Shown piece after piece: positions 8,269 through 50,224 of a DNA stretch of 56,704 nucleotides; the stretch's first letter is position 1; the number at the start of each line of letters is the position of its first letter. Under the pieces are notes generated by a model. The model was not told the origin of the DNA and made no database searches. It worked only from the letters and a program-made list of their open reading frames with translations. The stretch comes from Burkholderiales bacterium (GTDB lineage Bacteria > Pseudomonadota > Gammaproteobacteria > Burkholderiales > Casimicrobiaceae). Where the stretch lies: contig JANXNI010000059.1 of the NCBI GenBank assembly GCA_025354165.1, positions 1-56,704 on the forward strand, read 5' to 3'. The position numbers and the translations under genes are program-made.

Positions 8269-8384
8269 CGACTCTAGGTTGAAACGACCGCTACACGGGG
8301 GCTACAAGCACGTTATGTGAGAAGTCGACAAATAGCATTTATTCGCGCTAGCCCCAGTGTCGCGGCGATTTCAGCGAAAAGCTG
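8269..8384. repeat. 116-bp gene-end palindrome, copy A
   Basis: The right end reads GAAAAGCTG; in reverse complement it starts CAGCTTTTCGCTGAAATCGC. The left arm keeps TTGAAACGACCGCTACACGG but has lost the terminal CAGCTTTT. GGGGGCTA on the left faces TAGCCCC on the right. It lies 13 bases after the helicase stop and 15 bases from the bamD stop, between convergent genes. Confidence 0.75.
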
Positions 8385-8399
8385 CTTCGCCGGGCTGAG

Positions 8400-9200
8400 T
8401 TACCAAAACTTCCACCAGGCCGAACCCGGATCACCCGCTGAGCGACTAAACGTGGAGCGATACACCCGCTCGGTGTCCGCCGCGACCTGCGTGTTGCCCA
8501 TCGCCTGATAACTCTGCACCATGATGCGCAGGGCTTCTTCGTTGGCGGGGGTATTCGGGAAGTTGGTCAGGCAGCTCTGCGCGCGGTTGATGGCGGCCTG
8601 ATAGGCACCGCGATTGAAGTAATAGCGGGCGATGTGGGCTTCGTTCTGCGAGAGAGCGTTGACGAGGTAGCGCAGGCGCAGGCGGGAATCGCCCGTGTAT
8701 TTGCTTTGCGGGAACTTGTCGACCAGCGTTTTGAACGTGGCATAGGCCTCGCGAGCGGACTTCTGGTCGCGTTCCGACAAGTCCTGAGTGGCGATGAACG
8801 AGAGCAGGCCCAAGTCTTCGATGAAATTGGCTAAGCCCTTGATGTAATACGCGTAATCGACGTTTTCGTGATTCGGGTAGAGCTTGATGAAGCGATCCGC
8901 AGCCGCAATCGCCTGCGCCCGTTCGCCTAGTTTGTACTGGGCGTACGCGGTGTCGATGATCGCCTGTTGCGACTGCACGCCGTACGGGAAGCGGGATTCG
9001 AGCGTTTCGTACAGCTTGACGGCTTCGGTGTAGTTGCCCGCAGACAGCGCCTCTTTGGCGCGCTTATACAATTGCTCCACGCTCTGCTTTTGCGGGTCTT
9101 CGGTTTTGCCAAACATGCCGCTCATGGAGCCGCAACCGGACAACAACACGCTCGCCATGAGCATGAAAACAAGACTTTGTACTTTAGCGGCTAGGCGCAT
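8400..9200 (-). CDS. bamD: Outer membrane assembly lipoprotein BamD
   Basis: BamD is the essential lipoprotein partner of BamA in the complex that inserts beta-barrel proteins into the outer membrane. The 266-residue product has a lipoprotein signal ending LLSGC with the acylated cysteine at 23. TPR-like repeats follow: KEALSAGNYTEAVKLYETLE, FPYGVQSQQAIIDTAYAQYK, a segment with AAADRFIKLYPNHENVDYAY, then ARYYFNRGAYQAAINRAQ. This is the known BamD/ComL layout. It is transcribed divergently from rluD, a conserved arrangement. AGGAAAAGCC precedes the ATG. Confidence 0.96.
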   Translation of the reverse strand: MRLAAKVQSLVFMLMASVLLSGCGSMSGMFGKTEDPQKQSVEQLYKRAKEALSAGNYTEAVKLYETLESRFPYGVQSQQAIIDTAYAQYKLGERAQAIAAADRFIKLYPNHENVDYAYYIKGLANFIEDLGLLSFIATQDLSERDQKSAREAYATFKTLVDKFPQSKYTGDSRLRLRYLVNALSQNEAHIARYYFNRGAYQAAINRAQSCLTNFPNTPANEEALRIMVQSYQAMGNTQVAADTERVYRSTFSRSAGDPGSAWWKFW

Positions 9201-9296
9201 GGCTTTTCCTGAGGATCACATCGAAACATCGAACACAAACCAGATTATAGGTGGCGAAATTGGACGCGGCAGGGTTGTCGCGGCCAGGCTCTGGCT

Positions 9297-10295
9297 ATGA
9301 CTCAGGAAATCACGATTCCGTTCTCGTTGTCGGGCGTCCGGCTGGACGGCGCGTTGGCGCAGCTTTTTCCCGAGCATTCACGCAGTCGGCTGAAAGCCTG
9401 GCTTGAGGAAGGCCACGTTACGGTCGACGGCGAGGTGCTGCCAGGAAAAACCAAGCTGGAGGGTGGCGAAATTCTGGTCGCCAACCTTCCTGAGCCGGAA
9501 ATTCAAACCGAAGCGCAGGCCGAGAACATTCCGATCAGTGTGATCTTTGAAGACGAGCATTTGTTGGTCATCAACAAACCGCCGGGGCTGGTCGTTCATC
9601 CGGGTGCAGGCAATCGCGAAGGTACGCTGCTCAACGCGCTGCTACATCATGCGCCGCAACTCGCGAACGTGGCGCGCGCAGGCATCGTGCATCGGCTCGA
9701 CAAGGACACCAGCGGCGTGATGATGGTTGCCAAAACTGCGCTGGCGCAGACGCATCTGGTACGCCAGCTTCAGTCGCACAGCGCCTCAAGGGAATACGTG
9801 GCGCTGGTCCACGGCGAGGTGAAAAAAGGCGGCACGATTGAGAACATGATCGGTCGCCATCCGAAAGATCGCACGCGCCAGGCGGTTGTGGTGTTTGGCG
9901 GCAAGACGGCTATTACGCATTACAAAGTACGCGAGCTGTTTGGCGGCCCGGCGCTCAAGGGACGTCATTACACGCTGCTCGAATGTCAGCTGGAAACCGG
10001 GCGCACGCACCAGATTCGCGTCCACTTGTCGAGTCAGCAGCGCCCGCTGGTGGGCGACGCGACCTACGGCAAGCGCGGCGACGTGATGTTCGGACGGCAG
10101 GCGCTGCATGCGTGGCGGTTGACTGTAGTGCATCCGTTTACGGGCGAGAAAAAGCGCTTCGTCGCACCGATGGCCATCGACATGAAAAACCTGCTGAAGG
10201 GCCTGCGCGCTGAGCGTGACAATTTGCCGGAGGAAGACGACTTCGATGACGATTTCGAGGAAGACGGCAACGAGTTTATTTATGTCCGTGACTAG
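9297..10295 (+). CDS. rluD: 23S rRNA pseudouridine synthase RluD
   Basis: RluD isomerises uridines in helix 69 of 23S rRNA to pseudouridine. The 332-residue protein has an N-terminal S4 RNA-binding domain (about 12-75: RLDGALAQLFPEHSRSRLKA), the catalytic RluA-family motif HRLDKDTSG at 132-140 with the nucleophilic aspartate, GRTHQIRVHL further on, and an acidic tail (about 313-327). It stands divergent from bamD with 96 bases between the starts, and pgeF follows six bases after its stop, so the two form an operon. Confidence 0.96.
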   Translation: MTQEITIPFSLSGVRLDGALAQLFPEHSRSRLKAWLEEGHVTVDGEVLPGKTKLEGGEILVANLPEPEIQTEAQAENIPISVIFEDEHLLVINKPPGLVVHPGAGNREGTLLNALLHHAPQLANVARAGIVHRLDKDTSGVMMVAKTALAQTHLVRQLQSHSASREYVALVHGEVKKGGTIENMIGRHPKDRTRQAVVVFGGKTAITHYKVRELFGGPALKGRHYTLLECQLETGRTHQIRVHLSSQQRPLVGDATYGKRGDVMFGRQALHAWRLTVVHPFTGEKKRFVAPMAIDMKNLLKGLRAERDNLPEEDDFDDDFEEDGNEFIYVRD

Positions 10296-10301
10296 CCGTT
10301 T

Positions 10302-11078
10302 GTGGTTGCTCTGATTCAGCCCGATTGGGCCGCACCGCCCAACGTTCACGCCGCGATGACAACGCGGCGAGGCGGTGTCAGCCGTGAGCCGTACGACGAA
10401 TTGAATCTCGGCTACGCGACACAAGATGACCGCGCCTCAGTCGTTGAAAATGAGAGGATCGTTGCCAGTACGATGGGCGTGCAAACAGATGCCATTCGTT
10501 GGGTGTATCAAGTTCACGGCGTTGACGTGCATCATGCAGAATCGCTTCCAGTGAATGCGCCATTGGGGGCCACGACGATTACGGGTGACGCTATCGTGAG
10601 CCACACGCCGGGCCTTGTTTGTGGGATCAAGATTGCCGATTGCATGCCGGTTTTGTTCGCAGCGCGCGATGGCTCGGCGGTGGGCGCGGCGCACGCTGGT
10701 TGGCGCGGGCTTTCGGGCGGCGTGCTGGAGAACACGGTTGCCGCGATGCGCACTGATCCGGGTGAAATCGTGGCATGGATGGGGCCGTGCATCGGACCAA
10801 AGGCATTTGAAGTAGGCGATGATGTTCGCGATGCATTCATCAAGCACGATGCACGCGCTGCCGCACATTTCTCCCCGCGCTCGACTCCAGGAAAATTTCT
10901 CTGCGACCTGTATTCGATCGCGCGATTGCGGCTTGCTGCAATGGGTATTGATGAGGTCACTGGCGGCGACTATTGCACGTTCGCTCAACCGGAATTATTT
11001 TTTTCGCATCGTCGAAATCCTTTGACCGGACGCATGGCGGCTTTTGTGCGGATAGACGCCCACAGGGATACCGCGTAG
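10302..11078 (+). CDS. pgeF: Peptidoglycan editing factor PgeF (YfiH, laccase-fold)
   Basis: PgeF is a purine-nucleoside/laccase-fold hydrolase reported to remove mis-incorporated amino acids from peptidoglycan precursors; relatives act on nucleosides. The 258-residue protein shows MTTRRGGVS near the N-terminus, CGIKIADCMPVLF, the metal-site segment AAHAGWRGLSGGV, GPCIGPKAFEVG, and GGDYCTF towards the C-terminus. The frame is closed upstream by the rluD stop, so the GTG at 10302 is the first possible start. It is co-directional with rluD and probably co-transcribed. Confidence 0.92.
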   Translation: MVALIQPDWAAPPNVHAAMTTRRGGVSREPYDELNLGYATQDDRASVVENERIVASTMGVQTDAIRWVYQVHGVDVHHAESLPVNAPLGATTITGDAIVSHTPGLVCGIKIADCMPVLFAARDGSAVGAAHAGWRGLSGGVLENTVAAMRTDPGEIVAWMGPCIGPKAFEVGDDVRDAFIKHDARAAAHFSPRSTPGKFLCDLYSIARLRLAAMGIDEVTGGDYCTFAQPELFFSHRRNPLTGRMAAFVRIDAHRDTA

Positions 11079-11111
11079 CGCCGGATCACAAATCTCCGTG
11101 ATAATTCCCGC

Positions 11112-13301
11112 ATGCCTCAACCCGATGTAACCAAGCGCACAAATCCCGCCTTGCCTACCGCGCCAGCCGTAGTTGTCGAGCGTCCGGCCGACACTTTGGC
11201 TTGGATTGAGGCGCGCGTCGGTCGTGCCGCCGCGTTGCGAGGCGCGTCGTCGGGTGAGCTGCTGCATAAACTTCGCCTTGACGAGGACTGCGTGATCGCG
11301 GCGCAGCTCACCGTATTACCCGCTGATGCGGAGACTGAAGCGGCGGTGCTCGAAGCGTTCGGCCCGGAGATCACGAATCTGTTTTCCGGTGTGCATCGCA
11401 TGGCGACGATGCAGGGCCTGTCGAAGCCGTCGGTTGCGCCGACAACGCACGCGGTCGCCGTTGAGCAAGCACAACAAACCGAAGCATTACGCAAGATGCT
11501 GCTGGCGATGGTCGATGATGTGCGCGTCGTTCTGATCAAGCTTGCCGAGCGACTGGTTTCGCTGCGAAGCGCCGCGCTGTCAACCGAAGCGCGGCGTAAC
11601 GAGAGCGCACAGGCCGAAGCGCGCGAGGTGATGGACGTGTTCGCGCCGCTGGCCAATCGCCTTGGTGTGTGGCAGATCAAGTGGGAGCTTGAGGATCTGT
11701 CGCTGCGCCTTCTGGAACCTGCAGAATATCACCGCATTACACGCTATCTCGACGAAACGCGCATCGAGCGTGAAGCCTATATCGACACCACGAAAGCGGT
11801 TTTGCGTGATGCACTGGAGAAAGCAGGCATCACCGGCGAGATCACGGGGCGTTCGAAGCACATCTATTCGATTTACGACAAGCTCAAACGGAAACATTGC
11901 GCGATAGAAGAGCTGTATGACATTCGTGCGCTGCGGGTGATCGTGCCCGAGGTGCGCGATTGTTACGCGACGCTCGGCATCGTGCACAGCATGTTTCAGC
12001 CGGTGCCGGGCGAGTTTGATGACTACATCGCGAAGCCCAAAACGAACAACTATCGCTCACTGCACACCAGCGTGATCGGGCCGCACAATCGTGCGCTTGA
12101 AGTGCAAATCCGTACACAGGACATGCATCAGTCAAGCGAGTACGGCGTCGCCGCGCATTGGAATTACAAAGAAGGCGGCAGCGCTGCACGTGACGCCAGT
12201 TTTGCCGCAAAGATCGCGAGTTTGCGCCAGGTGTTGTCATGGGGTAACGAAGTCAGCTCGCCCGGTGAATTGCTGGCGGGCTTTAAATCCTCGCTGTTCG
12301 ACGAGACGATTTTTGTGTTGACACCGCAAGGCAAGATCATTGATCTGCCGAAGGATTCGACGCCGATTGATTTCGCCTACGCCGTGCATTCGGGGCTTGG
12401 TCATCGTTGCCGTGGCGCGAAGGTGGACGGCATGATGGTGCCGCTCACGACACCGCTCAAAAACGGGCAGCGTGTTGACGTCATCACGGTGAAAGAGGGT
12501 GGCCCATCTCGCGACTGGCTCAATCCGGACAACGGCTATTTGCACAGCAGTCGGGCGCGTAGCAAGGTCAGGCAATGGTTCAATACGCTGGATTCGCAGG
12601 AGACGCTGGCGCATGGTCGCGCGGTGGTCGAAAAGGATCTGCAGCGGCATGGACAGACCGCACTTAGTCTGGACAAACTGGCACACGAGGGCGGCTTCAA
12701 GTCACAGGACGAACTGTTCGCCGCAGTCGGACGCGCTGAGCTGAATACGCGCGAACTTGACATCGTTATTCGCAAGGCGGCCGGCTTGCTGGACGCGGTG
12801 CCGGAGCCTGATAGCCGTGGGGGAGTACATACCAGTCGCAGCCGGGCGAAATCGGGAAGCGGAGGCATTCTCATTGTCGGCGTCGACAAGTTAATGACCG
12901 GGCTCGCCAGGTGCTGCAAACCCGTCCCGCCTGATCCCATCGTGGGGTTTGTCACACGGCTCAAAGGCATCACGATTCACCGCCATGATTGCAGCAACGT
13001 CATTCGCATGATGGAAAAAGAGCCGGGCCGCATCATTGCCGCCGATTGGGGCGAAGCGGCGCAGGATGATGTGTTCAGCGTGCAGATCGAAGTGATGGCG
13101 GGTGACCGTCAAGGTCTGCTGCGCGACATCTCGGATGTGCTGGCGCGTGAGAAAATCAACGTCACCGCGGTGAACACCCTGTCGCGTGATTTCATGGCGA
13201 AAATGAAATTCACGGCCGAGGTGAAAACGATTGATCAATTGCGCGGCGCGCTGGTGCAGGTGACGCAGGTGAAGGGCGTGCAAAGCGCAAGGCGGATTTA
13301 A
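11112..13301 (+). CDS. relA: (p)ppGpp synthetase RelA (stringent response)
   Basis: RelA makes (p)ppGpp from ATP and GTP/GDP on ribosomes stalled during amino acid starvation. The 729 residues contain a degenerate hydrolase-like N-terminal region lacking the HDxxED metal motif, the synthetase domain (GRSKHIYSIYDKLKRK and PKTNNYRSLHTSV), a TGS domain (IFVLTPQGKIIDLPKDSTPI), a zinc-finger segment (ARCCKPVPPDPIVGF ... HRHDCSN) and a C-terminal ACT domain (MAGDRQGLLRDISDVLAREK). The synthetase carries EFDD, typical of monofunctional RelA, where bifunctional SpoT-type enzymes have RxKD. It lies 33 bases after pgeF. Confidence 0.95.
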   Translation: MPQPDVTKRTNPALPTAPAVVVERPADTLAWIEARVGRAAALRGASSGELLHKLRLDEDCVIAAQLTVLPADAETEAAVLEAFGPEITNLFSGVHRMATMQGLSKPSVAPTTHAVAVEQAQQTEALRKMLLAMVDDVRVVLIKLAERLVSLRSAALSTEARRNESAQAEAREVMDVFAPLANRLGVWQIKWELEDLSLRLLEPAEYHRITRYLDETRIEREAYIDTTKAVLRDALEKAGITGEITGRSKHIYSIYDKLKRKHCAIEELYDIRALRVIVPEVRDCYATLGIVHSMFQPVPGEFDDYIAKPKTNNYRSLHTSVIGPHNRALEVQIRTQDMHQSSEYGVAAHWNYKEGGSAARDASFAAKIASLRQVLSWGNEVSSPGELLAGFKSSLFDETIFVLTPQGKIIDLPKDSTPIDFAYAVHSGLGHRCRGAKVDGMMVPLTTPLKNGQRVDVITVKEGGPSRDWLNPDNGYLHSSRARSKVRQWFNTLDSQETLAHGRAVVEKDLQRHGQTALSLDKLAHEGGFKSQDELFAAVGRAELNTRELDIVIRKAAGLLDAVPEPDSRGGVHTSRSRAKSGSGGILIVGVDKLMTGLARCCKPVPPDPIVGFVTRLKGITIHRHDCSNVIRMMEKEPGRIIAADWGEAAQDDVFSVQIEVMAGDRQGLLRDISDVLAREKINVTAVNTLSRDFMAKMKFTAEVKTIDQLRGALVQVTQVKGVQSARRI

Positions 13302-13369
13302 CCTTTTTCTGTGAGAGCGACTGAAGCCGCTCCGACACGATACGTTTTTGCTTACAACAGGAGGAAATT

Positions 13370-14335
13370 TTGAAACAAATATCTGCGAAATCTATCGCAA
13401 CATGCCTCGCGCTGTGCGCCACATTTGTCCACGCACAATACCCGAACAAACCGATCAAGATGGTGGTGCCTTTCCCGCCGGGTGGCACAACGGACATCAT
13501 GGCGCGCGCCGTCGCTGCTGATTTGCAAAAATCATTGGGGCAGCCGGTGATCGTCGACAATAAGGCGGGCGCGGGTGGCAATATTGGCTCGGACTTTGTT
13601 GCCAAGGCAGCGCCAGACGGATACACGCTACTCATGGGGACTGTTGGCACGCATGCAATCAACGTGTCCCTCTATCCAAAAATGCCCTACGACGCAGTGA
13701 AGGATTTTTCTCCGGTGTCGTTGGTGGCTGGCGTGCCAAACGTGCTGGTGGCCGCGCCGAATTATCCGGTTAACAGCGTCAAAGACTTGATCGACGCAGC
13801 GAAAAAATCACCCGATGCGGTGACCTTCGCTTCGAGCGGAAACGGCACCTCGATTCATCTGTCCGGCGAATTGTTCAAGCAGCTCGCGGGCGTACAAATG
13901 ACGCATGTTCCGTACAAGGGCTCGTCGGCGGCGCTGCCCGACGTCATGAGCGGTCAGGTCAACGTGATGTTTGACAATGCGCCATCGGTGATGCCCCAGA
14001 TCAAGGGCGGCAAATTGAAGGCGATCGCTGTGACCAGCAGCAAGCGCTCGCCCGCTTTGCCGAATGTTCCGACGATTGCTGAGTCGGGCGTGGCGGGCTT
14101 TGAAGCGAGCTCGTGGTTTGGTGTTTTGGCGCCCGCAGGCACGCCCAAAGAAATTGTCGACAAGCTCTCGCATGCCATCGCCAAGGCGTTGCAGACACCG
14201 GAAATGAAAGACCGTCTTGCGGCTCAGGGCGCAGAGGCCGTCGGCAATACGCCGGAGCAGTTCGCAGCGCACATCAAGGCGGAAATCGACAAATGGGCAA
14301 AGGTGGTCAAAGCCTCCGGTGCAAAGGTCGATTGA
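13370..14335 (+). CDS. Bug/TctC-family periplasmic solute receptor
   Basis: These proteins bind small carboxylates or other polar solutes in the periplasm, sometimes for tripartite tricarboxylate transporters. The 321-residue product has a signal peptide cleaved near VHA-QYP, then the family signatures YPNKPIKMVVPFPPGGTTD and GQPVIVDNKAGAGGNIGSD and a conserved THVPYKGSSAALPDVMSGQV segment. The start is TTG, backed by a strong AGGAGG six bases upstream; no ATG is available in a suitable place. No TctA/TctB membrane subunits are nearby, so its ligand and partner are unknown, as for most Bug proteins. Confidence 0.93.
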   Translation: MKQISAKSIATCLALCATFVHAQYPNKPIKMVVPFPPGGTTDIMARAVAADLQKSLGQPVIVDNKAGAGGNIGSDFVAKAAPDGYTLLMGTVGTHAINVSLYPKMPYDAVKDFSPVSLVAGVPNVLVAAPNYPVNSVKDLIDAAKKSPDAVTFASSGNGTSIHLSGELFKQLAGVQMTHVPYKGSSAALPDVMSGQVNVMFDNAPSVMPQIKGGKLKAIAVTSSKRSPALPNVPTIAESGVAGFEASSWFGVLAPAGTPKEIVDKLSHAIAKALQTPEMKDRLAAQGAEAVGNTPEQFAAHIKAEIDKWAKVVKASGAKVD

Positions 14336-14361
14336 CGGTTTTCGCAACTTTGTTTTGAGTT

Positions 14362-14477
14362 CAGCTTTTTGGTAAAAGCTTTATCGCATGGGGGCTAGGC
14401 TGCGTAAAGACCGATAGTCGATATCCGTCATATTGTGCATTCAGCCCCCGTTTAGCCGTCATTACAGGAAAAAGCTG
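14362..14477. repeat. 116-bp gene-end palindrome, copy B
   Basis: It begins CAGCTTTTTGGTAAAAGC and ends GGAAAAAGCTG. Left GGGGGCT faces right AGCCCCC, and the centre reads GACCGATAGTCGATATCCG. It begins 26 bases after the Bug gene stop and ends at the base adjoining the stop codon of the convergent Pr6Pr gene. Confidence 0.85.
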
Positions 14478-15149
14478 TTAGTTAAATTTATCTGAAACTG
14501 CCTTGGGTTTGACGTAGTTGTTAATCACAATCAACAACGCAGCAACAGCAATGAATGCGAGCAAGACGAGCAGTGAATTCACCAGCACCGCGTTGATGCC
14601 AAGTACGCCCACGTCGATAAACGGGTACGGATACAGGCCGATCATCGCGCCTCGTGCAAGCACGTAAACCAGATAGCCGAGCGGAAAGACCAACCAGCTC
14701 GGCAAGTCCTTCCAGTTGAGCGCGCCGCGCGGCACCGCGAACCACCAGAAAATCACAAACGCGGTCGGCATGACGTAGTGCAGCGTCACGTCGGCCACCC
14801 ACAGCCAGCCTTGCGGTGCCCAGATTTTGCTTAGCACCAGCAGATAGGTGAGCCCGACAATCGTGATGCATGCCGCGATGGCGGTAACTACGCCGGGGCG
14901 ATGCAAGTGTTTGCCGAGTGGCGAGTGCATCGGCAACGCCACAGCGGTCAGCGCGAACGCGGCAAGGATATTGGTCAGGATCGTGAAGTACCCGGAGTAC
15001 ACGATGATGCCCAGCGCAACGGTTTTGCCGTTGCCTAAGGCCAGATCAATCGACAGGAAAAATTGCAGAATGACCGCGCACCAGCCGACGATCGCAAACA
15101 GGGCGGCGTACGTTCTAAGGCGGGGATGGTGGGTGCTGATCGGGGCCAT
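14478..15149 (-). CDS. Pr6Pr-family integral membrane protein
   Basis: The 223-residue protein is almost entirely hydrophobic, with about six transmembrane segments, starting AALFAIVGWCAVILQFFLS and ending in a long helix before VINNYVKPKA. It resembles the Pr6Pr membrane family of unknown function: the first loop has SGYFTILTNILAA, the middle holds TLHYVMPTAFVIFWW, and the later loop has YVLARGAMIGLYPYPFIDV. There is no signal of a catalytic activity. It converges on the Bug gene and is followed at its 3' end directly by repeat copy B. Confidence 0.8.
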   Translation of the reverse strand: MAPISTHHPRLRTYAALFAIVGWCAVILQFFLSIDLALGNGKTVALGIIVYSGYFTILTNILAAFALTAVALPMHSPLGKHLHRPGVVTAIAACITIVGLTYLLVLSKIWAPQGWLWVADVTLHYVMPTAFVIFWWFAVPRGALNWKDLPSWLVFPLGYLVYVLARGAMIGLYPYPFIDVGVLGINAVLVNSLLVLLAFIAVAALLIVINNYVKPKAVSDKFN

Positions 15150-15226
15150 TACTGTGCTTAAAAAAAGGCGCGATGACGCTCACGCTAATTACCGCAGTCC
15201 GCCATGACGGGACGCGAAAAATATTG

Positions 15227-15973
15227 CTAATAAGTCGCTCGTCCGCCGGAAATATCGAACACTCCCCCCGTCGTGAACGAACATTCCTCAGACGACAACC
15301 ACGCAATCATCGACGCGATTTCGTCGACGAGTACGAAGCGGTTCATCGGTATTTTTGACTTCATGTAATTGATGTGCTCGGCGGACATCTGGCTGAACAT
15401 CTCTGTTTGCGCGGCGGCGGGTGTGATGCAGTTGCAGGCGACACCCGTCGTCGCCAGTTCTTTGCCGAGTGACTTGGTGAGACCGATCAAACCGGCCTTC
15501 GCCGCGCTATATGCCGGCGCGTTCGGATTGCCTTCCTTGCCCGCAACACTGGCAATATTGACGATGCGTCCGTAAGCTGCCTTGATCATGTGCGGCACGA
15601 CGCTCCGGCACACGAGATACGGTGCAACCAGATCGACTTCGATCACTTTTCGGAAGTCCGCAGGCGCGTATTCCCACGTTTTCTGATTGGGGCCGGTGAT
15701 ACCCGCGCTGTTGATCAAAATATCGATGCGGCTGAACGCTTCCAGCGTCGTCTGCGTCGCAGCGGTCACCGCGCCCTCTTGTGTGAGATCGACGACGATG
15801 CCCAGCGTGCCGTCGCCAAGCTTGCCGGCCGCTGCTTTTGTCGTCGCGGGGTCAATATCCCAGATGGCGACTTTGCTGCCGCTGGCGATAAAGCGCTCGG
15901 CCACCGCATACCCAATCCCGCGCGCGCCACCGGTAATCACCGCTACGCGGCCCTTCAAATCGATTGCATTCAT
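15227..15973 (-). CDS. Short-chain dehydrogenase/reductase (SDR)
   Basis: This is an NAD(P)-dependent oxidoreductase of 248 residues with the classical SDR features: TGGARGIGYAVAERF as the cofactor-binding TGxxxGxG near residue 15, INSAGI (NAG), the catalytic Ser in NIASVAG, and YSAAKAG with the Tyr-x-x-x-Lys pair. The acidic residue in AIWDID after the second strand points to NAD. The ATG has a clear AAGGAGA upstream. The substrate is not evident; sugar or sugar-acid dehydrogenases and FabG-like reductases are both possible. Confidence 0.9.
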   Translation of the reverse strand: MNAIDLKGRVAVITGGARGIGYAVAERFIASGSKVAIWDIDPATTKAAAGKLGDGTLGIVVDLTQEGAVTAATQTTLEAFSRIDILINSAGITGPNQKTWEYAPADFRKVIEVDLVAPYLVCRSVVPHMIKAAYGRIVNIASVAGKEGNPNAPAYSAAKAGLIGLTKSLGKELATTGVACNCITPAAAQTEMFSQMSAEHINYMKSKIPMNRFVLVDEIASMIAWLSSEECSFTTGGVFDISGGRATY

Positions 15974-16140
15974 CAGTTTCTCCTTGTGCGGACATTATGC
16001 GACTGCGACCATCTTGTCACAGGTGGGTTCGAACGGCAGTCCGTGCTGCGCAAGGCAGCAGACCGAACACACGAGTACATTTGCGGCTGTGGCCAAGCTG
16101 AATTTACGGGTTGGTCGATGCAATCGAGTCCGAGGAAGCC

Positions 16141-17709
16141 ATGACACTATCTATACGCAGTAAAGCGCTACCCTTGTTATTTGCACTTTCCGCATTGCTG
16201 TTGGGCGGCTGTGGCGGCGGCGGTGGAACGAGCGCCACCACGTCACCGCCGCCCGATACGCCCGCTGCTGCGTATACCGATCCTACCGTTTACTCGTCGG
16301 GCGCAGGCGCGTCGGTCGCGGTCGCTAACGAAGCCACGGCTGTCACGCATTTTCAAACGATGATCGGTGGTGTGGCCATTCCGTACACGGCTACCACGGG
16401 GCATTTGACGGCAAACCGACTCGCGACCGAAGCGCCACTGGCCTCGTTTTTTTACGTCGCATACACCGCAGACAACAAGGATTTGACAAAGCGGCCCGTT
16501 ACTTTTTTCTACAACGGTGGGCCGGGCTCGTCCACCGTGTGGCTGCACCTCGGCTCGTTTGGCCCGAAACGTCTTGCGGCGTCTGCGCCGTCAACGACAA
16601 CAGCGGTGCCGTTTCCGCTCGTCGACAACGCAGAGAGTCTGCTCGACGTCAGTGATCTTGTGTTTGTCGATGCCGTGGGTAGCGGTCTCTCGCAGGCCAT
16701 TGCGCCGAATATCAATCGCAGTTTTTGGGGGGTTGATGCCGACGCGGCCGTGTTCCGTGATTTTGTGCGTCGTTACGTCAAGGTCAATGGCCGCGACGCA
16801 TCGCCGAAATTTTTGTTCGGTGAATCGTATGGCACCACCCGTAGCGCCGTGCTCGCCAATCTGCTTGAAAGCGCAGGCATGTCGCTCTCCGGGGTGGTGC
16901 TGCAATCGTCGGTGTTGAACTACAACACCAACTGCGAGCAGAACCCCTTGCCCGCTGTGCGCTGCTCGGGTTTCATGCCAAGCTATGGCGCGGTGGGCGC
17001 GTGGTTTAGTCTGACCACGCCTACGCCAACCGCAGCCGCTTTACCAGCGTATGTCGACACGCTTCGCACGCTGGCGAACAATGAGCTTGACCCGGCGCAA
17101 CGGGTGTTCCTGTTGTTCGGCACGTTGCCGACTAACGATCTGTTGCCGCGTCTGGCGGCGGCTACCGGCATCGCTTCTTCTCGCTGGCAGGCGCAGTTCA
17201 ACATGACGCCGAGTTATTTTCAGACCTACCTCGTCGCAGGTCAGTTGATCGGTCGCTATGACGGGCGAGTGTCCGTTCCCGTCAGTTCACCGCTGGCAAG
17301 CGAGGGCGATCCTTCGAGCACATTCATCACGCCATCGTTCGTATCGACGATCGCAAGCTATTTGCCGAACACGCTCAAGTACACCAATCCGTCGAATTAC
17401 ACGACGCTCAGTAACGCCATCAATTTCTGGGATTTCACCCACGACGGGCTGTCGCTGCCGGACACCATTCCCGATCTGGCCGCCGCATTCGCGCACAACC
17501 CGAAGCTCAAAGTGCTGTCGCTTAACGGCTATCACGATCTGGCGACCCCCTTCCATCAGACTGAAATCGATGTCGCGCGGCTCGGTGTCAACCCGAACGT
17601 GCAAAACAAGTTTTATAGCGGCGGGCATATGACTTATCTTGACGACACGTCGCGGGTACAGCAGAAGGCTGATCTCGCGCAGTTCTACCTATCGGCACTT
17701 GCCCAGTAG
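16141..17709 (+). CDS. S10-family serine carboxypeptidase-like lipoprotein
   Basis: The product is an exported serine peptidase of the alpha/beta-hydrolase fold, 522 residues from the ATG at 16141, which has GAGGAAG upstream; a longer frame to 16111 would disrupt the signal. It carries a lipoprotein signal LLLGGC with the cysteine at 24, then a glycine run. S10 signatures are FFYNGGPGSSTVWLHLG (oxyanion hole), FGESYGTTR (nucleophile serine), GYHDLATPF (acidic residue) and GGHMTYL (histidine). It is probably anchored in the outer membrane. A small secreted EF-hand-like gene follows after 24 bases, likely one operon. Confidence 0.9.
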   Translation: MTLSIRSKALPLLFALSALLLGGCGGGGGTSATTSPPPDTPAAAYTDPTVYSSGAGASVAVANEATAVTHFQTMIGGVAIPYTATTGHLTANRLATEAPLASFFYVAYTADNKDLTKRPVTFFYNGGPGSSTVWLHLGSFGPKRLAASAPSTTTAVPFPLVDNAESLLDVSDLVFVDAVGSGLSQAIAPNINRSFWGVDADAAVFRDFVRRYVKVNGRDASPKFLFGESYGTTRSAVLANLLESAGMSLSGVVLQSSVLNYNTNCEQNPLPAVRCSGFMPSYGAVGAWFSLTTPTPTAAALPAYVDTLRTLANNELDPAQRVFLLFGTLPTNDLLPRLAAATGIASSRWQAQFNMTPSYFQTYLVAGQLIGRYDGRVSVPVSSPLASEGDPSSTFITPSFVSTIASYLPNTLKYTNPSNYTTLSNAINFWDFTHDGLSLPDTIPDLAAAFAHNPKLKVLSLNGYHDLATPFHQTEIDVARLGVNPNVQNKFYSGGHMTYLDDTSRVQQKADLAQFYLSALAQ

Positions 17710-17733
17710 CGCCCTGACTCGCGGAGATTGATC

Positions 17734-18141
17734 ATGAAAAAAACCGGTTCTGATATTCACCTGACACTCGTGCAGGTCGTGATGAGCGCCGCTGTCGCGC
17801 TCTTCTGGGTGTCGACGTCGCATGCGTTAACAGCGTCCGCAGATGTTCCTCTGCGCGATCCGTGGGTACCTGCTGACACGCGCAAGGCGGCGGCCGCTGC
17901 ACCAGCGCCGGTCGCCACCAGCGGCGCCGATCTCAAAAAACAGGTTGAACTGAAACTCAAGAAATCGTTTGACGCGGCGCTTGTCAATGGCGACGGCACG
18001 CTGAGCGCAGCTCAGGCAGACGCCGCAGGCCTTGGCTTCGTGGTGAAGCACTTCAACGAAATTGATCAACGCAAGCTGGGCGTAGTGCGTTTTGAAGACG
18101 TCACTCGCTTTATGAACTCGCGCGGGGCACGGTTGGATTGA
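17734..18141 (+). CDS. Small secreted EF-hand-like protein
   Basis: The 135-residue product starts at ATG with GGAG upstream. An N-terminal signal (VVMSAAVALFWVSTSHA) is followed by a Pro/Ala-rich linker and a C-terminal calcium-binding-like module: FDAALVNGDGTLSAAQADA, then VVKHFNEIDQRKLGVVRFED. The first loop keeps the G-D-G pattern of an EF-hand but lacks the usual first aspartate, so calcium binding is uncertain. It lies 24 bases after the S10 peptidase gene and may be co-expressed with it. I do not recognise a named family. Confidence 0.75.
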   Translation: MKKTGSDIHLTLVQVVMSAAVALFWVSTSHALTASADVPLRDPWVPADTRKAAAAAPAPVATSGADLKKQVELKLKKSFDAALVNGDGTLSAAQADAAGLGFVVKHFNEIDQRKLGVVRFEDVTRFMNSRGARLD

Positions 18142-18173
18142 ATCGGCGAGCAGAGCGCGCTGAGCTAGAGCAT

Positions 18174-18289
18174 CAACTTTTTGCTGAAAGCCATATTTAA
18201 CTGGGGCTGCAGCCTGATTTTACAGATAGTCAACTATCCAACAAATGAGCCTCTGTCCTCCGTGTAGTATGGGCTACAAGAAAAAGTTG
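18174..18289. repeat. 116-bp gene-end palindrome, copy C
   Basis: It begins CAACTTTTTGCTGAAAGCC and ends AGAAAAAGTTG, the same terminal pattern with a compensating G-to-A change on both ends, and has CAGATAGTCAACTATC in the centre. It lies 32 bases after the EF-hand gene stop and 17 bases before the stop of the convergent DapA-like gene. Confidence 0.8.
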
Positions 18290-18306
18290 TTTTCATCATC
18301 ACGCCC

Positions 18307-19236
18307 CTAAACATTCGCCCGCGCGTCCACCCGAGCCACGCGCGACAGCAAATAATCCACTTCGGCCCGAGCGACCGATGACAACGCCGCACCGGGTTTG
18401 CGCAGCGTGTCGTGGCTCAGAATGCCTCGCTTCATCATCACATATTTGCGCACCGCGAGGCCGGGACCGGGCTGTTGCTCGTAGCGTATAAGTGGCAGGT
18501 GGGCATCGAACAAATCGTGCGCTTCGTCGCGTTTGCCTTCCGTCGATAGACGTACCACGTCGACCAGCATGTCGGGGAAACAGTAGCCCGTATTCGCGCC
18601 GTCCGCGCCGCGCTCCATCTCGAAATCGAGGAAGAGGGCGTTGTTGCCGCAGAGGATCGAAATGTGGCGCATTGAGCCGTCTTTCTCGTAGCCGCGTAAG
18701 GTTGATATCTTGTCGAGCCCCGGCCAGTCCTCGTGTTTAAGCATCACACACGCCGCGTTTTCCATCACGATGCGGCGAATCACGGCGGGCGTCATCTGCA
18801 CCGAAAACGTGAGCGGATAGTCCTGAATCACAAACGGCACGTCGCCGCCAATCGCATCACTTGCCTGCTTGTAATAAGTCGCGATTTGATCGTCGGTGCG
18901 CAGCGTGTTGGGTGGTGCGATCATCACGCCTGCGGCACCCGCATCCATCGCGTCACGCGTGAGCGCGCGCATCGCCGCGAAGCCCGGCGCGGAGACGCCG
19001 ACGACGACCGGCAGCGCACCGGCGCGTTTAATCACGCGCTTCACGACATCGACGGATTCCGCATGCTCAAGCTTTGGCGCTTCGCCGAGCTGACCGAGTA
19101 CGGTGATGCCGGTCACGCCACTTGCGATGAAAAAGTCGGTCATTCGGTCAATGGACGAAGTGTCGATTGCGCCGTCGGGCATGAACGGCGTTGGCGCGAT
19201 GACGATAACGCCGGAAGCGGCAGAGTTAAGTTTCAC
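18307..19236 (-). CDS. Dihydrodipicolinate synthase/N-acetylneuraminate lyase family protein
   Basis: This is a class I aldolase/dehydratase of the DapA superfamily, 309 residues, TIM barrel. It shows the early motif APTPFMPDGAID, a GQLGEAPKL loop in place of the usual GTTGE-type motif, VVGVSAPG, the tyrosine in QDYPLTF and the Schiff-base lysine in VMLKHEDWPG. It is unlikely to be the lysine-pathway DapA, because it sits with a Bug receptor and opposite an IlvD/Edd-type dehydratase. A 2-keto-3-deoxy sugar-acid aldolase or dehydratase role is plausible but inferred from context only. Confidence 0.88.
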   Translation of the reverse strand: MKLNSAASGVIVIAPTPFMPDGAIDTSSIDRMTDFFIASGVTGITVLGQLGEAPKLEHAESVDVVKRVIKRAGALPVVVGVSAPGFAAMRALTRDAMDAGAAGVMIAPPNTLRTDDQIATYYKQASDAIGGDVPFVIQDYPLTFSVQMTPAVIRRIVMENAACVMLKHEDWPGLDKISTLRGYEKDGSMRHISILCGNNALFLDFEMERGADGANTGYCFPDMLVDVVRLSTEGKRDEAHDLFDAHLPLIRYEQQPGPGLAVRKYVMMKRGILSHDTLRKPGAALSSVARAEVDYLLSRVARVDARANV

Positions 19237-19291
19237 GACGGAGTGCCTAAAAAGTTAGCAAATAGAAGTCACAGGGCGGAGAAGACGCAAT

Positions 19292-20269
19292 TTAATCGCC
19301 CTTGATATTCCCGTCCTTGATCACCTGAGTCCACATTGCCACTTCATTGCGAATCGCCTGCGTCGCCTGTTCTGGTGTTGTCCACGTAGCGTTCGCACCT
19401 TGCGCCAGCATCGAGTCTTTCACGTCCTGCTGCTCCAGAATTCCTTTGAGCGCGCTGTTAAGTTTGGCAATGATCGGAGCCGGCGTTCCGGCGGGCGCGA
19501 GGATGCCGAACATTGAGCTGACGTCAAAGCCTTTGAGGCCCGCTTCGGGCGCGGTGGGCACGCCGGGGAACGACGGAATCGGCAGCGTTGTTGCCGTCGC
19601 CAGCGCGCGCAGTTTGCCCGCCTTGACGTGGCCCTGGGAGGCAGGTGCGGTTTCGATCATCATCTGCACCTGACCACCGATCAGATCCGTCATCGCCGGG
19701 CCGCTGCCTTTGTACGGCACATGCAGCAGCTTGACGCCAACGAGTCGCTGAAACATTTCACCGGCGAGATGTTGCGGCGAACCGTTGCCCGAAGACGCGT
19801 AGGTGATGCCGCCAGGATTTGCTTTCGCAAGCGCAATCAGTTCATTGAGCGTGTTCGCTTTCACGGCGGGATTGACGACAAACACGAGGGGCACGCGACC
19901 CACGATGGCGACGGGTGCAAAGCTCTTCTCCATATCAAACTGCGCGGACGCTGCGGAGAGCACGCTGCTGATTGAGTGGCTCGTGAGCGCACCCATGAGC
20001 AGGGTGTAGCCATCAGGCTTTTCCTTGGCGACGATCGCAGCGCCAAGATTCCCGGTCGCCCCCGCGCGATTGTCCACGATCACCGTTTGCCCTAACGCCG
20101 TCGAGAGTTTTTGCGCCATCACGCGGCCGATCACGTCGGTCGCTCCGCCTGGCGGATACGGCACAACGAGTTTGATCGGTTTCTCGGGATACTGCGCGTG
20201 AGCGACAGCCGCGACGAAGGCGAAAGCAACACTCGCCGCACGAACAAGTGACAACGAAAATGGATTCAC
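19292..20269 (-). CDS. Bug/TctC-family periplasmic solute receptor
   Basis: This is a second Bug receptor, about 325 residues from the GTG at 20269, which has AAGGAC upstream and gives a proper signal peptide (FAFVAAVAHA-QYP). The frame stays open seven codons further upstream, but the extension would spoil the signal. Family signatures are EKPIKLVVPYPPGGATD, GQTVIVDNRAGATGNLGA and LLHVPYKGSGPAMTDLIGGQ. It precedes the DapA-like gene by 55 bases on the same strand, so the pair probably forms an operon that delivers and processes an unknown acid. It is transcribed away from the dehydratase gene at 20448. Confidence 0.92.
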   Translation of the reverse strand: MNPFSLSLVRAASVAFAFVAAVAHAQYPEKPIKLVVPYPPGGATDVIGRVMAQKLSTALGQTVIVDNRAGATGNLGAAIVAKEKPDGYTLLMGALTSHSISSVLSAASAQFDMEKSFAPVAIVGRVPLVFVVNPAVKANTLNELIALAKANPGGITYASSGNGSPQHLAGEMFQRLVGVKLLHVPYKGSGPAMTDLIGGQVQMMIETAPASQGHVKAGKLRALATATTLPIPSFPGVPTAPEAGLKGFDVSSMFGILAPAGTPAPIIAKLNSALKGILEQQDVKDSMLAQGANATWTTPEQATQAIRNEVAMWTQVIKDGNIKGD

Positions 20270-20447
20270 GGCACAGTCCTTCTGGAGCAAATTAATTGCC
20301 GTGAGTATCGCCGCAGCCGCGTCGCGGGCGACTGTCGCGATTCAGTTTATGCATAGCTGGCACGGAGCACTGAGCTTTGTCGTGGTGGTGCTCAGGAGAA
20401 TGACATCTTGCAAGCTTGTGACACGCTGTCTCGCATATGCTTGGACT

Positions 20448-22208
20448 ATGAAAGATTCCACATACGCCGCCAACGCAACGCCCGTGCCGCCAGCCGCGAC
20501 CGGCATGCGAAAAGGCCTCACCAGCTACGGTGATTCGGGCTTCTCGCTGTTTCTGCGCAAGGCCTTCATCAAGGGGGCGGGATTCACCGATTCCGCGCTG
20601 GATCGTCCGGTCATTGGCATTGCAAATACTGGCAGTGCTTATAACCCGTGCCACGGCAATATGCCGCAGCTCATCGAGGCCGTGAAGCGCGGCATCATGC
20701 TCGCGGGTGGCCTGCCGATGGACTTCCCGACGATTTCTCTGCACGAGAGTTTTGCCACGCCAACCAGCATGTATCTGCGCAATCTGATGTCGATCGACAC
20801 CGAGGAAATGATTCGCGCGCAGCCGATGGATGCGGTGGTGCTGATTGGCGGTTGTGACAAAACCGTACCTGCGCAATTGATGGGTGCGGCGTCGGCGAAC
20901 ATCCCGTCGATTGTGCTGATCACGGGTTCGATGCTTACCGGATCGCACCGCTCCGAACGCGTGGGTGCGTGCACCGATTGCCGTCGCTACTGGGGCAAAT
21001 ATCGCGCGGACGAAGTGGACGACGCAGAGATTGCCGAGGTGAACAATCAACTCGTTGCGAGCGTCGGTACGTGCTCGGTTATGGGTACGGCGAGCACGAT
21101 GGCTTGCATCGCAGAGGCATTGGGAATGACGGTGCCCGGCGGCGCGTCGCCGCCAGCGGTTACAGCGGATCGTATTCGCGTGGCCGAAGAAACCGGAGCG
21201 TTGGCCGTCAAGATCGCGCATGAGCGGTTAACGATTGACAAGGTGCTCACGGCAAAATCGTTCGAGAACGCAATGCGCGTGTTGCTGGCGATTGGCGGCT
21301 CAACGAATGGCATCGTGCATCTCACGGCAATTGGCGGTCGCTTGGGTTTCGATATTGATTTGAAAGCACTCGACCGCATGGGCCGCGACACGCCGGTGCT
21401 GCTCGATTTGAAGCCGTCCGGCCAGCACTACATGGAAGATTTTCACCATGCGGGCGGGATGGCAACGCTGCTACGCGAACTGAAACCATTGCTGCATCTC
21501 GATGCGCTGACCGTTAGCGGTCGCACGCTGGGAGAAGAGATCGACGCGGCAGGCGCGGGCTTCAGGCAGGACGTCATACGGTCTCGTGACAACCCAATCT
21601 ATCCGCAGGGCGGTATCGCAGTGCTTCAGGGCAATCTGGCGCCTGGCGGGGCGATCATCAAGCAGTCGGCGGCCGATCCCAAGCTCATGGAGCATGAAGG
21701 TCGCGCGGTTGTATTCGAGAACGCAGCCGATCTTGCGACGCGCATTGATCGCGATGACCTCGACGTGACGGCGGACGACATCATCGTGCTCAAAAACATC
21801 GGGCCGAAAGGCGCACCCGGCATGCCGGAAGCGGGCTATATCCCGATACCGAAAAAGCTTGCACGCGCGGGCGTGAAGGACATTGTGCGTATCTCCGATG
21901 GTCGCATGAGTGGCACCGCGTTTGGCACGATTGTGTTGCATGTCGTACCGGAGTCCGCGATGGGCGGACCGCTCGCGTATGTGCAGAACGGGGATCGCAT
22001 TCGCCTGAGCGTGGCGAATCGTGAGATCGCGTTGCTGATTAGTGATGAAGAGCTTGCGCGTCGTGCCGCCAAAAAACCGGTCGTAATTCCTACCGCTAGT
22101 CGCGGCTATCACAAGCTCTTTCTGCAAACCGTGACACAAGCCGATCAGGGCGTCGATTTTGATTTTTTACGTGGCACCGAACCGCGCGGAGCGATCCCAA
22201 AAATGTAG
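20448..22208 (+). CDS. IlvD/Edd-family dehydratase (sugar-acid dehydratase-like)
   Basis: The family contains dihydroxy-acid dehydratase, 6-phosphogluconate dehydratase and aldonate dehydratases, which use an iron-sulfur cluster to remove water. From ATG 20448 the protein is 586 residues, the normal length. Cluster and metal motifs are NPCHGNMP, IGGCDKTVPAQ and VGTCSVMGTASTM, with GGSTNGIVHLTA, GRMSGTAFGTIVLH and PEAGYIPIPKK further on. The sequence GACTDCRRYWGKYRADE resembles the L-arabonate/xylonate branch more than IlvD proper. Divergence from a Bug/DapA-like operon fits a sugar-acid pathway. The frame extends upstream without a believable start. Confidence 0.9.
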   Translation: MKDSTYAANATPVPPAATGMRKGLTSYGDSGFSLFLRKAFIKGAGFTDSALDRPVIGIANTGSAYNPCHGNMPQLIEAVKRGIMLAGGLPMDFPTISLHESFATPTSMYLRNLMSIDTEEMIRAQPMDAVVLIGGCDKTVPAQLMGAASANIPSIVLITGSMLTGSHRSERVGACTDCRRYWGKYRADEVDDAEIAEVNNQLVASVGTCSVMGTASTMACIAEALGMTVPGGASPPAVTADRIRVAEETGALAVKIAHERLTIDKVLTAKSFENAMRVLLAIGGSTNGIVHLTAIGGRLGFDIDLKALDRMGRDTPVLLDLKPSGQHYMEDFHHAGGMATLLRELKPLLHLDALTVSGRTLGEEIDAAGAGFRQDVIRSRDNPIYPQGGIAVLQGNLAPGGAIIKQSAADPKLMEHEGRAVVFENAADLATRIDRDDLDVTADDIIVLKNIGPKGAPGMPEAGYIPIPKKLARAGVKDIVRISDGRMSGTAFGTIVLHVVPESAMGGPLAYVQNGDRIRLSVANREIALLISDEELARRAAKKPVVIPTASRGYHKLFLQTVTQADQGVDFDFLRGTEPRGAIPKM

Positions 22209-24993: not shown

Positions 24994-25006
24994 TCCGAGC
25001 TAGCGC

Positions 25007-26378: not shown

Positions 26379-26495
26379 CAGCTTTTTAGTGAAACCGCCT
26401 TTAAATAAGGGCAAAGACCCGGTTTTGGCATAAATCAACTAACGACAGAAATCGCCTTCAAGCTCCTATTCAATAAGCGATTAGCAAAAAAGCTG
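26379..26495. repeat. 117-bp gene-end palindrome, copy D
   Basis: It begins CAGCTTTTTAGTGAAACCGC and ends AGCAAAAAAGCTG. The GGGGGCT pairs of other copies are replaced by ATAAGGGC on the left and AGCTCCTATT on the right. It starts nine bases after the anti-sigma stop. This is the only complete copy where the next gene runs in the same direction. Confidence 0.75.
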
Positions 26496-27788: not shown

Positions 27789-27904
27789 TAGCTTTTGCAT
27801 AAAAGCCCCATTGAATGGGGGCTAAGAGCGCTAAAAATCGATAGTCAACTCTAGCACAATTGCCGCTTGAGCTCCACAGCAGCGGTCGTTTCAGCCAAAA
27901 GCTG
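27789..27904. repeat. 116-bp gene-end palindrome, copy E
   Basis: It begins TAGCTTTTGCATAAAAGCC and ends GCCAAAAGCTG. The left arm has its own hairpin, AGCCCC-ATTGAAT-GGGGGCT, and the centre reads AAATCGATAGTCAACT. It starts 13 bases after the reductase stop and ends 19 bases before the stop of the convergent VOC gene. Confidence 0.8.
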
Positions 27905-34607: not shown

Positions 34608-34769
34608 GATGGTCGATTCAAAAAAGAATGAGTGGGGATGCCAGTGAACGAATTCAGGGTAGCGCGCCTGCGGCAGCGGTTGCACCTGCGGATCGCAACT
34701 AAGGTTCATATTGTCTCGCAAGCCCGATAAATCAATCGCCGCGCGCTGCAATTTTGGGCCTCCGGTCGA

Positions 34770-34835
34770 AATTGTGCGACCTTAAGCGTTTTGGCGCTCC
34801 AGCCCTCGTTTAATAAGGGCTGCAAGGAAAAGCTG
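34770..34835. repeat. Partial copy G of the gene-end palindrome
   Basis: It ends AAGGAAAAGCTG and carries a hairpin AGCCCT-CGTTTAATA-AGGGCT. In reverse complement it aligns well with the right arm of copy F (CAGCTTTTCCTTGCAGCC; GAGCG-CA-A; GTCG). The other half is not recognisable. It lies about 50 bases downstream of the moaA stop, again at a gene end. Confidence 0.6.
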
Positions 34836-49482: not shown

Positions 49483-49494
49483 GGCGGATTTCAG

Positions 49495-50100
49495 GTGTTC
49501 ACTTTGTTGAACCGGAAAGCCGCAGCCTGCTGCGGCTTTTTTCTTTTGCTTTGGGCAACTTTGTGCACGGGCGCTGTCCATGCGCAAAACGGGCGTTGGT
49601 ATCCCGAAGACGAAGCCGCACCGATTCTGAAATTAAAGACGGTCGACAATCAGGAATTCGATCTCGCGGCACTCAAGGGCCGCCTGGTAATTGTGAATTT
49701 TTGGGCGACCTGGTGCGGGCCGTGCGTTGCGGAAATGCCGTCGTTGCAGGCGCTAGGCGCGCGGCTCGGCGCAAAAAACGCAGTGATCCTTGGCGTGAAT
49801 TATCACGAGTCGCCGCAAAAAATCACGGATTTTCAGGCGAAGCATCCCGTCACTTTTCCGCTGCTACGCGACCCGTGGCAGGAGGTATCGGCCGAATGGA
49901 AAGTGAGCGTGCTGCCGACCACTTTTATCGTCGACGCGCGGGGCATGCTTCGCTACCGCGTGGTGGGTGAGGTGGATTGGGGCAGCAAGGACGTCGCGGA
50001 TCGGCTGAAAAAGATTTCCGCTGCCGACAGGGCGAACAAAGTTGCAGCGCCGCTTTCGGCGAAAGCTGCGGCACAAAATTCAGTGGGTCAAGGCGGATAA
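49495..50100 (+). CDS. TlpA-family periplasmic thioredoxin-like protein
   Basis: The product has 201 residues and starts at GTG. A signal peptide (CCGFFLLLWATLCTGAVHA-QN) is followed by a thioredoxin fold with the active site FWATWCGPCVAEMPSLQA and the cis-proline region KVSVLPTTFIVDARG. It reduces or isomerises disulfides in the periplasm, often for cytochrome maturation. An intrinsic terminator hairpin is embedded in codons 8-18, so the start choice merits checking, though no later start gives a full signal peptide. Confidence 0.9.
   Translation: MFTLLNRKAAACCGFFLLLWATLCTGAVHAQNGRWYPEDEAAPILKLKTVDNQEFDLAALKGRLVIVNFWATWCGPCVAEMPSLQALGARLGAKNAVILGVNYHESPQKITDFQAKHPVTFPLLRDPWQEVSAEWKVSVLPTTFIVDARGMLRYRVVGEVDWGSKDVADRLKKISAADRANKVAAPLSAKAAAQNSVGQGG
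49516..49547 (+). terminator. Intrinsic terminator inside the TlpA signal-peptide codons
   Basis: AAAGCCGCAG and CTGCGGCTTT form a 10-bp perfect stem with a CCTG loop, directly followed by a TTTTTT-C-TTTT tract. It lies 34 bases after the transglutaminase-like gene stop, where a terminator for that gene is expected, yet within the coding start of the next gene. Confidence 0.8.
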
Positions 50101-50108
50101 CGACGTTA

Positions 50109-50224
50109 CAGCTTTTGGTTGAAATGACGTCTGATTCTGGGCTGACGCAAGTTTTTGGTGATTGTCGACATAAGCCAATATGTCGCTCACGCCCTTGTTA
50201 AATGGGCGTTTCAAGAAAAAGCTG
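50109..50224. repeat. 116-bp gene-end palindrome, copy F
   Basis: It begins CAGCTTTTGGTTGAAATGAC and ends CAAGAAAAAGCTG; centre GATTGTCGACATAAGCCAAT with TGTCGACA symmetrical; the right arm holds a hairpin ACGCCC-TTGTTAA-ATGGGCGT. It begins eight bases after the TlpA stop and ends ten bases before the stop of the convergent M61 gene. Confidence 0.85.

Follow-up and report, generated by a model that had tools for sequence, protein, structure and literature searches.

What holds a palindromic repeat of about 116 bp at the ends of genes at a constant length, and what might it do there? The question is raised by contig JANXNI010000059.1 of a Burkholderiales bacterium (assembly GCA_025354165.1), a stretch of 56,704 nucleotides that we call the window, in which an earlier note, made from the letters alone, had pointed out six copies of such a repeat. 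We find that the repeat is a site on the DNA rather than an RNA or a hairpin, and that it belongs to a family restricted to one genus. Its copies are two-fold symmetric with independently varying arms, selected place by place, evenly spaced, biased towards convergent genes and flanked by phased A/T content. The best reading, which we hold with moderate confidence, is that the element is a symmetric site wrapped by a multimeric putative protein, and acts as a fixed supercoiling node.

A symmetric element in seven places of one contig

In what follows G000 denotes the source genome, a 4.72-Mb draft that is 95% complete and in which the window is contig C55, while G001, G005 and similar labels denote relatives. 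All six copies lie where they had been placed, measure 116 or 117 bp each and score 50.2-69.6 bits on both strands under the family model R1, a sequence-only model built from 47 copies, five of the six window copies among them. The copies, together with a half copy that had been overlooked and one example of a flank, are as follows.

Copy A, 8269..8384, no strand: 116 bp, between the + strand gene 6291-8255 and the - strand gene 8400-9200
Copy B, 14362..14477, no strand: 116 bp, between the convergent genes 13370-14335 (+) and 14478-15149 (-)
Copy C, 18174..18289, no strand: 116 bp, between the convergent genes 17728-18141 (+) and 18307-19236 (-)
Copy D, 26379..26495, no strand: 117 bp, between the tandem genes 25554-26369 and 26684-27775 (+)
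Copy E, 27789..27904, no strand: 116 bp, between the convergent genes 26684-27775 (+) and 27924-28388 (-)
Copy F, 50109..50224, no strand: 116 bp, between the convergent genes 49495-50100 (+) and 50235-52055 (-)
Half copy, 34768..34835, no strand: a single arm, from the central dyad to a AAAAGCTG end
Example flank of copy B, 14252..14361, no strand: zone of about 110 bp of A/T phase-locking in pooled flanks (an average over pooled copies, which this interval illustrates without showing it individually)

The copies begin 13, 26, 32, 9, 13 and 8 bp past a stop codon, and convergent stops bracket five of the six, both as previously described. Copy A, for example, starts 13 bp past the stop of the + strand gene and ends 15 bp before that of the - strand gene. 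The inverted termini that had been ascribed to every copy are found at all right ends, which read AAAAGCTG in five of six and AAAAGTTG in copy C, but not at all left ends: these read CAGCTTTT in B, D and F, CAACTTTT in C, TAGCTTTT in E and CGACTCTA in A, whose left terminus is eroded. The half copy matches R1 with E values of 2.4e-5 (+) and 3.1e-5 (-), the match on the - strand being 68 bp long. A scan of the window against Rfam returned two tRNAs and no other match above the gathering score.

Across the family the element is a degenerate two-fold symmetric motif of 116-118 bp, with about 93 bits of information in G000. Its conserved boxes lie at both ends (CAGCTTTT), about 26 bp from the dyad (GGGGCT in G000, CGGTCGTT elsewhere) and at the dyad itself (AGTCGACT), and are separated by pure A/T blocks. 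The end box is present at 166 of the 216 ends of 108 G000 copies, and the motif continues beyond it, with A/T at the two outer bases on each side (57 copies). The centre, TCGA, is a possible 4-base staggered centre, and three pseudo-dyads about 32 bp apart can be read within the element. The motif differs between species, with a GGGGCT type of 116 bp in G000, a GCGACnGCC-GCGGTCGTT type of 118 bp in other species, and clear inner palindromes in outgroup species, for example GCCCAATT-AATTGGGC. The repeat family is real, and the constant length, two-fold symmetry, gene-end position and selection that had been proposed for it are all supported.

Hundreds of copies, one genus

A search of the genome and its relatives, as the earlier note had proposed, found further copies in abundance. 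The exact-end pattern CAGCTTTT-N(90-110)-AAAAGCTG has 91 matches in the 4.72 Mb of G000, and the reversed pattern has none. It is present in 14 of 119 genomes (G000 and relatives), namely in ten genomes of the genus (g1) with 5-91 copies each and as a single match each in G009, G015, G030 and G044. At an E value of 1e-4 the family model matched 16 of 17 genomes of the genus, the exception being G016, and none of 47 other genomes of the family. In an order-wide model search with stricter filters, covering 158 genera, 6 of 399 genomes matched, all of the same genus. Among the matches listed, the relatives are metagenome-assembled genomes titled Burkholderiales, Betaproteobacteria or Pseudomonadota, and 2 of 104 stretches (a Flavobacteriaceae record and a Chloroflexi record) look like chance. 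The element family is restricted to one genus among those tested, and no description of it was found in the open-licence PubMed Central literature searched. A viral origin was rejected, as the pattern occurs in 23 viral-contig stretches of which none exceeds 3.3 bits under the family model.

For an unbiased census we counted hits of at least 20 bits in 772 kb of G000 (contigs C72, C4, C79 and C55). This gave 76 hits, with one more at 10-20 bits, as compared to a single hit of 10.6 bits for a decoy search on reversed DNA, so that true hits stand well apart from background. The density, one per 10.2 kb, extrapolates to about 460 copies per genome. An iterated model applied to 480 kb of G005 found 40 hits of at least 20 bits, 34 of them inside a contiguous 400 kb. 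Both genomes also hold half elements of 59-62 bp, in which the matched part stops at the central TCGA, a break position that local alignment resolves only to about 8 bp:

G000:C72:223520-223580: half element, model match
G000:C79:17929-17989: half element, model match
G005:C1 2331425-2331486: half element, model match
G005:C1 2588153-2588211: half element, model match
G005:C1 2623866-2623925: half element, model match

Even spacing and preference for convergent genes

Genes were called with our own codon-usage script rather than a standard gene finder. By these calls the G000 copies are intergenic, any overlap with a called gene being at most 40 bp, and G005 has one overlap, with a marginal open reading frame call. 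The 76 census copies comprise 28 in convergent, 36 in tandem and 11 in divergent gaps and one at a contig end. Of the 653 gaps available, copies occupy 28 of the 104 between convergent genes, 36 of the 445 between tandem genes and 11 of the 104 between divergent ones, so that convergent gaps are occupied about three-fold more often than the others (47 of 549; odds ratio 3.9, p 1.1e-6). Similarly, in G005 the occupied gaps are 16 of 60 convergent, 16 of 270 tandem and 8 of 62 divergent (odds ratio 4.7, p 4.9e-5). The description of the repeat as lying mostly between convergent genes therefore stands as a genome-wide enrichment, but the majority is local to the window, as 28 of 76 copies in 772 kb have this context. 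The census supersedes an earlier count of 63 copies picked mostly for exact ends (25 tandem, 19 convergent, 14 divergent, 5 at contig edges).

The copies are also spaced more evenly than random gaps of the same types, with a coefficient of variation of 0.633 in G000 against 0.954 +- 0.109 (P 0.0002) and of 0.553 in G005 against 0.925 +- 0.142 (0 of 5000).

Phased A/T content beyond the element

The A/T content of the flanks is phase-locked to the element, over about 110 bp on both sides in G000 and G001 and over 55 bp in G005. The period is 11.3-11.5 bp, and the amplitude in 69 unbiased G000 copies is 0.087 at 3-58 bp and 0.036 at 58-113 bp, as compared to 0.078 and 0.047 in 47 G001 copies; for these two species p was 0 of 400 rotations in both the first and the second 55 bp. 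At 113-168 bp the phasing has p 0.04 in the unbiased G000 set and p 0 of 400 with all G000 copies, and is not significant in G001; beyond 168 bp there is none. It persists when coding bases alone are considered (p 0 of 300 at 20-75 bp, 0.01 at 58-113 bp). In G005, 72 flanks gave a period of 10.9 bp and an amplitude of 0.066 at 3-58 bp. For the first stretch, control sets of more than 300 positions gave amplitudes of 0.008-0.014, and for the second 0.006-0.017; smaller sets were noisier (0.029 with n=67, 0.021 with n=92). Separately, the G000 control positions carry a phase-independent background A/T periodicity of about 11.1-11.2 bp with an amplitude of about 0.01.

Selection and turnover at single places

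Copies at the same place in two species were compared in 13 pairs, drawn from 44 G001 loci (47 copies) and 108 G000 copies, with copy A as an extra; pairs were chosen by eye from a BLAST listing, and one-sided or shifted matches were dropped except for L322, L327 and L330, which are one-sided. Between such partners identity is 0.915, 0.628 and 0.394 at high-, middle- and low-information positions, as compared to 0.831, 0.475 and 0.315 between unrelated copies, and both members are 116 bp long in all 13 pairs. The flanks of the same places have an identity of 0.853 in coding DNA and 0.609 at four-fold sites. Informative positions and length are thus kept while free positions are near saturation, which demonstrates selection at individual sites. 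Accelerated evolution of the free positions was considered, as 0.394 lies below the four-fold value, but the adjoining outer 12 bp stand at 0.465 and we do not claim it.

Occupancy itself varies. The place of copy A is occupied in five of nine genomes compared, among them G001, G005, G006 and G012, and in G001 a copy precedes the gene that copy D precedes in G000. The place that corresponds to copy B in G001, G005, G006 and G012 lacks both the copy and gene 14478-15149, copy E has no counterpart at the matching place in G001, G005 and G006, and copy C sits at a synteny break relative to G001.

The intervals 14362-15149 and 27789-28388 deserve separate mention, as copies B and E are each missing from relatives together with one neighbouring gene. 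It is as if copy and gene came or went as a cassette-like unit, a pattern seen in three window cases only.

A wrapped site as the best reading

A symmetric DNA-wrapping complex would be expected to select a base-specific, symmetric site whose length is constant, whose A/T blocks lie on one helical face and whose flanks are phased. A role in supercoiling is suggested by the regular spacing of about 10 kb and by the bias towards convergent gaps. We infer that a putative protein wraps the element and that its role is topological. In this model a symmetric multimeric protein would touch each half independently, the same complex would bend or wrap the element DNA such that A/T runs outside it remain in phase, and about 460 intergenic sites, one per roughly 10 kb, would be the fixed nodes of the chromosome's topology, with a preference for convergent gaps, where positive supercoils gather. 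More tentatively, the chromosome as a whole could consist of sequence-fixed topological domains, with some 460 even, wrapped 116-bp nodes, with the composition of flanking genes tuned in phase and with a recognition sequence that is rewritten between species.

Several observations weigh against this reading. No binding protein was identified among the candidates examined, which were GyrA/ParC repeats and Y1 transposases. Divergent gaps are occupied too (11 of 104), and turnover is high, copies B and E being missing from G001, G005 and G006. The phasing in G005 is not significant past 58 bp (p 0.34 and 0.72), 25 control occurrences of AAAAGCTG outside elements gave an amplitude of 0.07 at 11.0 bp, and the A/T period within the element is 9.4 bp, not the 10.75 bp of gyrase. 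In addition, a mobile element with target immunity and a choice of targets could yield even spacing and flank phasing.

As to the binder, DNA gyrase or a gyrase-recruiting complex is the leading, though speculative, candidate, and that gyrase itself binds the element is possible but doubtful. Gyrase is universal and the elements belong to one genus; of 17 genomes of the genus, 16 have GyrA C-terminal repeats, the element-free G016 among them, and none were found in the element-bearing draft G014; and the base-specific conservation of the element far exceeds the degenerate gyrase motif. Gyrase thus does not account for the presence of elements. A gyrase paralogue was rejected as binder, as domain counts show no difference. 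The gyrA gene itself has an element of at least 20 bits on its 3' side in 8 of 16 gyrA-matching genomes (G000, G001, G002, G004, G005, G006, G007 and G012), and in G013 this side scores 13 bits. The loci scanned were:

L401 (G000:C79): gyrA locus, 3'-side element scan
L398, L399, L400, L404, L406, L407, L408: gyrA loci, 3'-side element scan

At the same 3' spot, G007 and G011 have terminator-like hairpins with T runs.

Other explanations

Another sequence-specific architectural protein with no topoisomerase role (a nucleoid protein, an Lrp-like octamer, an SMC loader or a CTCF-like barrier) would explain the strong base-specific boxes, the three pseudo-dyads about 32 bp apart, the even spacing, and an inner palindrome that changes by species with its symmetry retained. 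We consider it unlikely, as the convergent-gene bias favours supercoiling over generic architecture; the candidate genes examined for such a protein were only the GyrA/ParC repeats and Y1 transposases named above.

The MITE (miniature inverted-repeat transposable element) suggested at the outset finds little in its favour in the copies themselves. Target-site duplications of 1-10 bp are no more frequent than in shuffled sets (57 copies). For tests of independence we used 140 G000 copies of 116 bp, of the roughly 460 extrapolated, and the highest identity among their 9,730 pairs was 0.716, as compared to a best-pair mean of 0.706 and a maximum of 0.724 in ten runs of simulated independent draws. 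The 140 copies behave as independent draws from one symmetric 116-bp motif, with no recent pair among them. G004 has one near-identical pair (C66:857 and C205:299), each member adjoining a gyrA C-terminal match, which may be a single place assembled or duplicated twice. No live RAYT-type transposase was found in G000 in a search limited to the Y1 family: the draft yielded one Y1 domain, with a stop codon inside and no element in the fetched locus. A non-autonomous MITE- or REPIN-like element that chose curved intergenic DNA, obeyed transposition immunity and is now inactive in G000 would account for the confinement to a genus, the intergenic position, the differing copy number between species, and gain and loss at matching places. 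It would also fit the occupied convergent gaps, which less 116 bp have a median of 48, equal to empty ones (median 44); the even spacing, which could reflect immunity; and the Y1 domain, which was not found in the element-free G016 or in G009 with its few matches and one of whose loci in G001 (L423) carries a partial element match of 23 bits. However, old individual copies retain their informative positions and the motif runs beyond its ends as A/T phasing, and together with the missing duplications, the lack of close pairs and the broken Y1 domain this makes a mobile origin improbable.

Selection on a folded RNA or DNA had been proposed from the constant length and from an apparently compensating change at the two ends of copy C. 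Compared with their shuffles, five window copies out of six have the more stable fold (z -2.4 to -3.8), copy D being the exception at -1.1, and the 140 copies have a mean energy of -33.7 kcal/mol, as compared to -23.6 for mononucleotide shuffles and -31.6 for independent-position samples; the last difference points to short-range dependence inside the arms. However, arm-swapped chimeras (-34.3) and inner-palindrome-swapped chimeras (-33.7) are as stable as real copies, and the two arms of a copy resemble each other (0.540, standard error 0.005) no more than arms taken from different copies (0.544). Covariation between arms is absent within genomes (z -0.95 in the 140 G000 copies, -0.10 in G001, -0.83 in the 118-bp sets), and the change in copy C follows no family trend in these covariation and arm-swap tests. 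The arms do covary when species are pooled (z 3.6; inner palindrome z 4.4; pooled 118-bp sets), an effect that is gone within genomes and that implies symmetry preserved while the sequence shifts between species, as expected for a symmetric protein with species-specific preference. Therefore, copy number and orientation bias came out as the earlier note had anticipated, but arm covariation did not and the folding explanation falls. A bidirectional terminator or RNA 3'-end stabiliser working through a hairpin, for which the stability, the gene-end position and the hairpins at gyrA in G007 and G011 speak, is highly improbable given the equally stable chimeras, the nil covariation, the stem not followed by a T run, a terminator-like site in only one of five copies within the scanned 8100-28000, the 11 of 76 copies between divergent genes and the lack of an Rfam match.

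Other features near the copies

In G001 (C76, about 59900-66560, loci L209-L210) some 6.6 kb lie between the bamD-side element and a helicase gene, and a stretch of the helicase 3' end, about 130 bp long, is repeated; two small genes near a second element resemble what we take, from their sequence, to be an antitoxin-toxin pair. In the window, 31218-31414 and 33160-33356 form a 197-bp direct repeat, 88% identical, one unit in a gene, presumably aldehyde-dehydrogenase-like, and the other in a short upstream fragment. A 28-nt inverted repeat, 89% complementary, occupies 6145-6172 and 6261-6288 in the gap before a helicase-like gene.

Discussion

E. coli is described as having 400-500 supercoiled domains of about 10 kb each, and bacterial domains of this size as dynamic, with stochastic ends (PMC3820752), a description that concerns enterobacteria. 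If our reading is true, domain ends would be DNA-encoded in this genus. The element family offers a direct way to ask if sequence fixes supercoil domains of about 10 kb in any bacterium, and how a site-recognition system can change its sequence at hundreds of places with its geometry retained.

The closest parallel is with gyrase sites. The gyrase motif from E. coli Topo-Seq is symmetric and spans 130 bp with a 10.75-bp GC phasing, and BIME-2 elements are intergenic gyrase targets (PMC6379681); in three species gyrase shows extended preferences that recur periodically within 120 bp (PMC12324340). Like these sites and Mu SGS, the element is two-fold symmetric (116-118 bp as compared to 130 bp), has A/T-G/C phasing near the helical repeat over a long stretch and is preferentially intergenic, and its TCGA centre would suit a 4-base stagger. 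Its phasing, at 10.9-11.5 bp outside the element in three species and 9.4 bp inside, compares with 10-11 bp for gyrase. Unlike gyrase sites it has near-invariant boxes far from the centre, a genus limit and about 460 evenly spaced copies.

REP tags are given as GTAG or CGTC (PMC3733652). The element shares with REP, BIME and REPIN sequences their dispersal as intergenic palindromes, hundreds of copies and species-specific variants, but it is 116 bp long rather than 20-40 bp, ends in CAGCTTTT without either tag and, unlike REPIN/RAYT systems, has no selected arm pairing, no near-identical copies in 140 and no live RAYT found in G000. RUP, Correia, ERIC and YPAL are MITE-like repeats, of 100-170 bp, and are likewise palindromic and intergenic with inverted termini; the element differs in having neither target-site duplication nor sharp ends, and in free positions that are saturated while others are constrained. 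Finally, matS, parS and KOPS are chromosome-organising motifs of 8-20 bp. The element resembles them as a dispersed motif kept by selection and predicted to bind protein, and departs from them in its 116 bp, its phased flanks and its even, domain-scale spacing.

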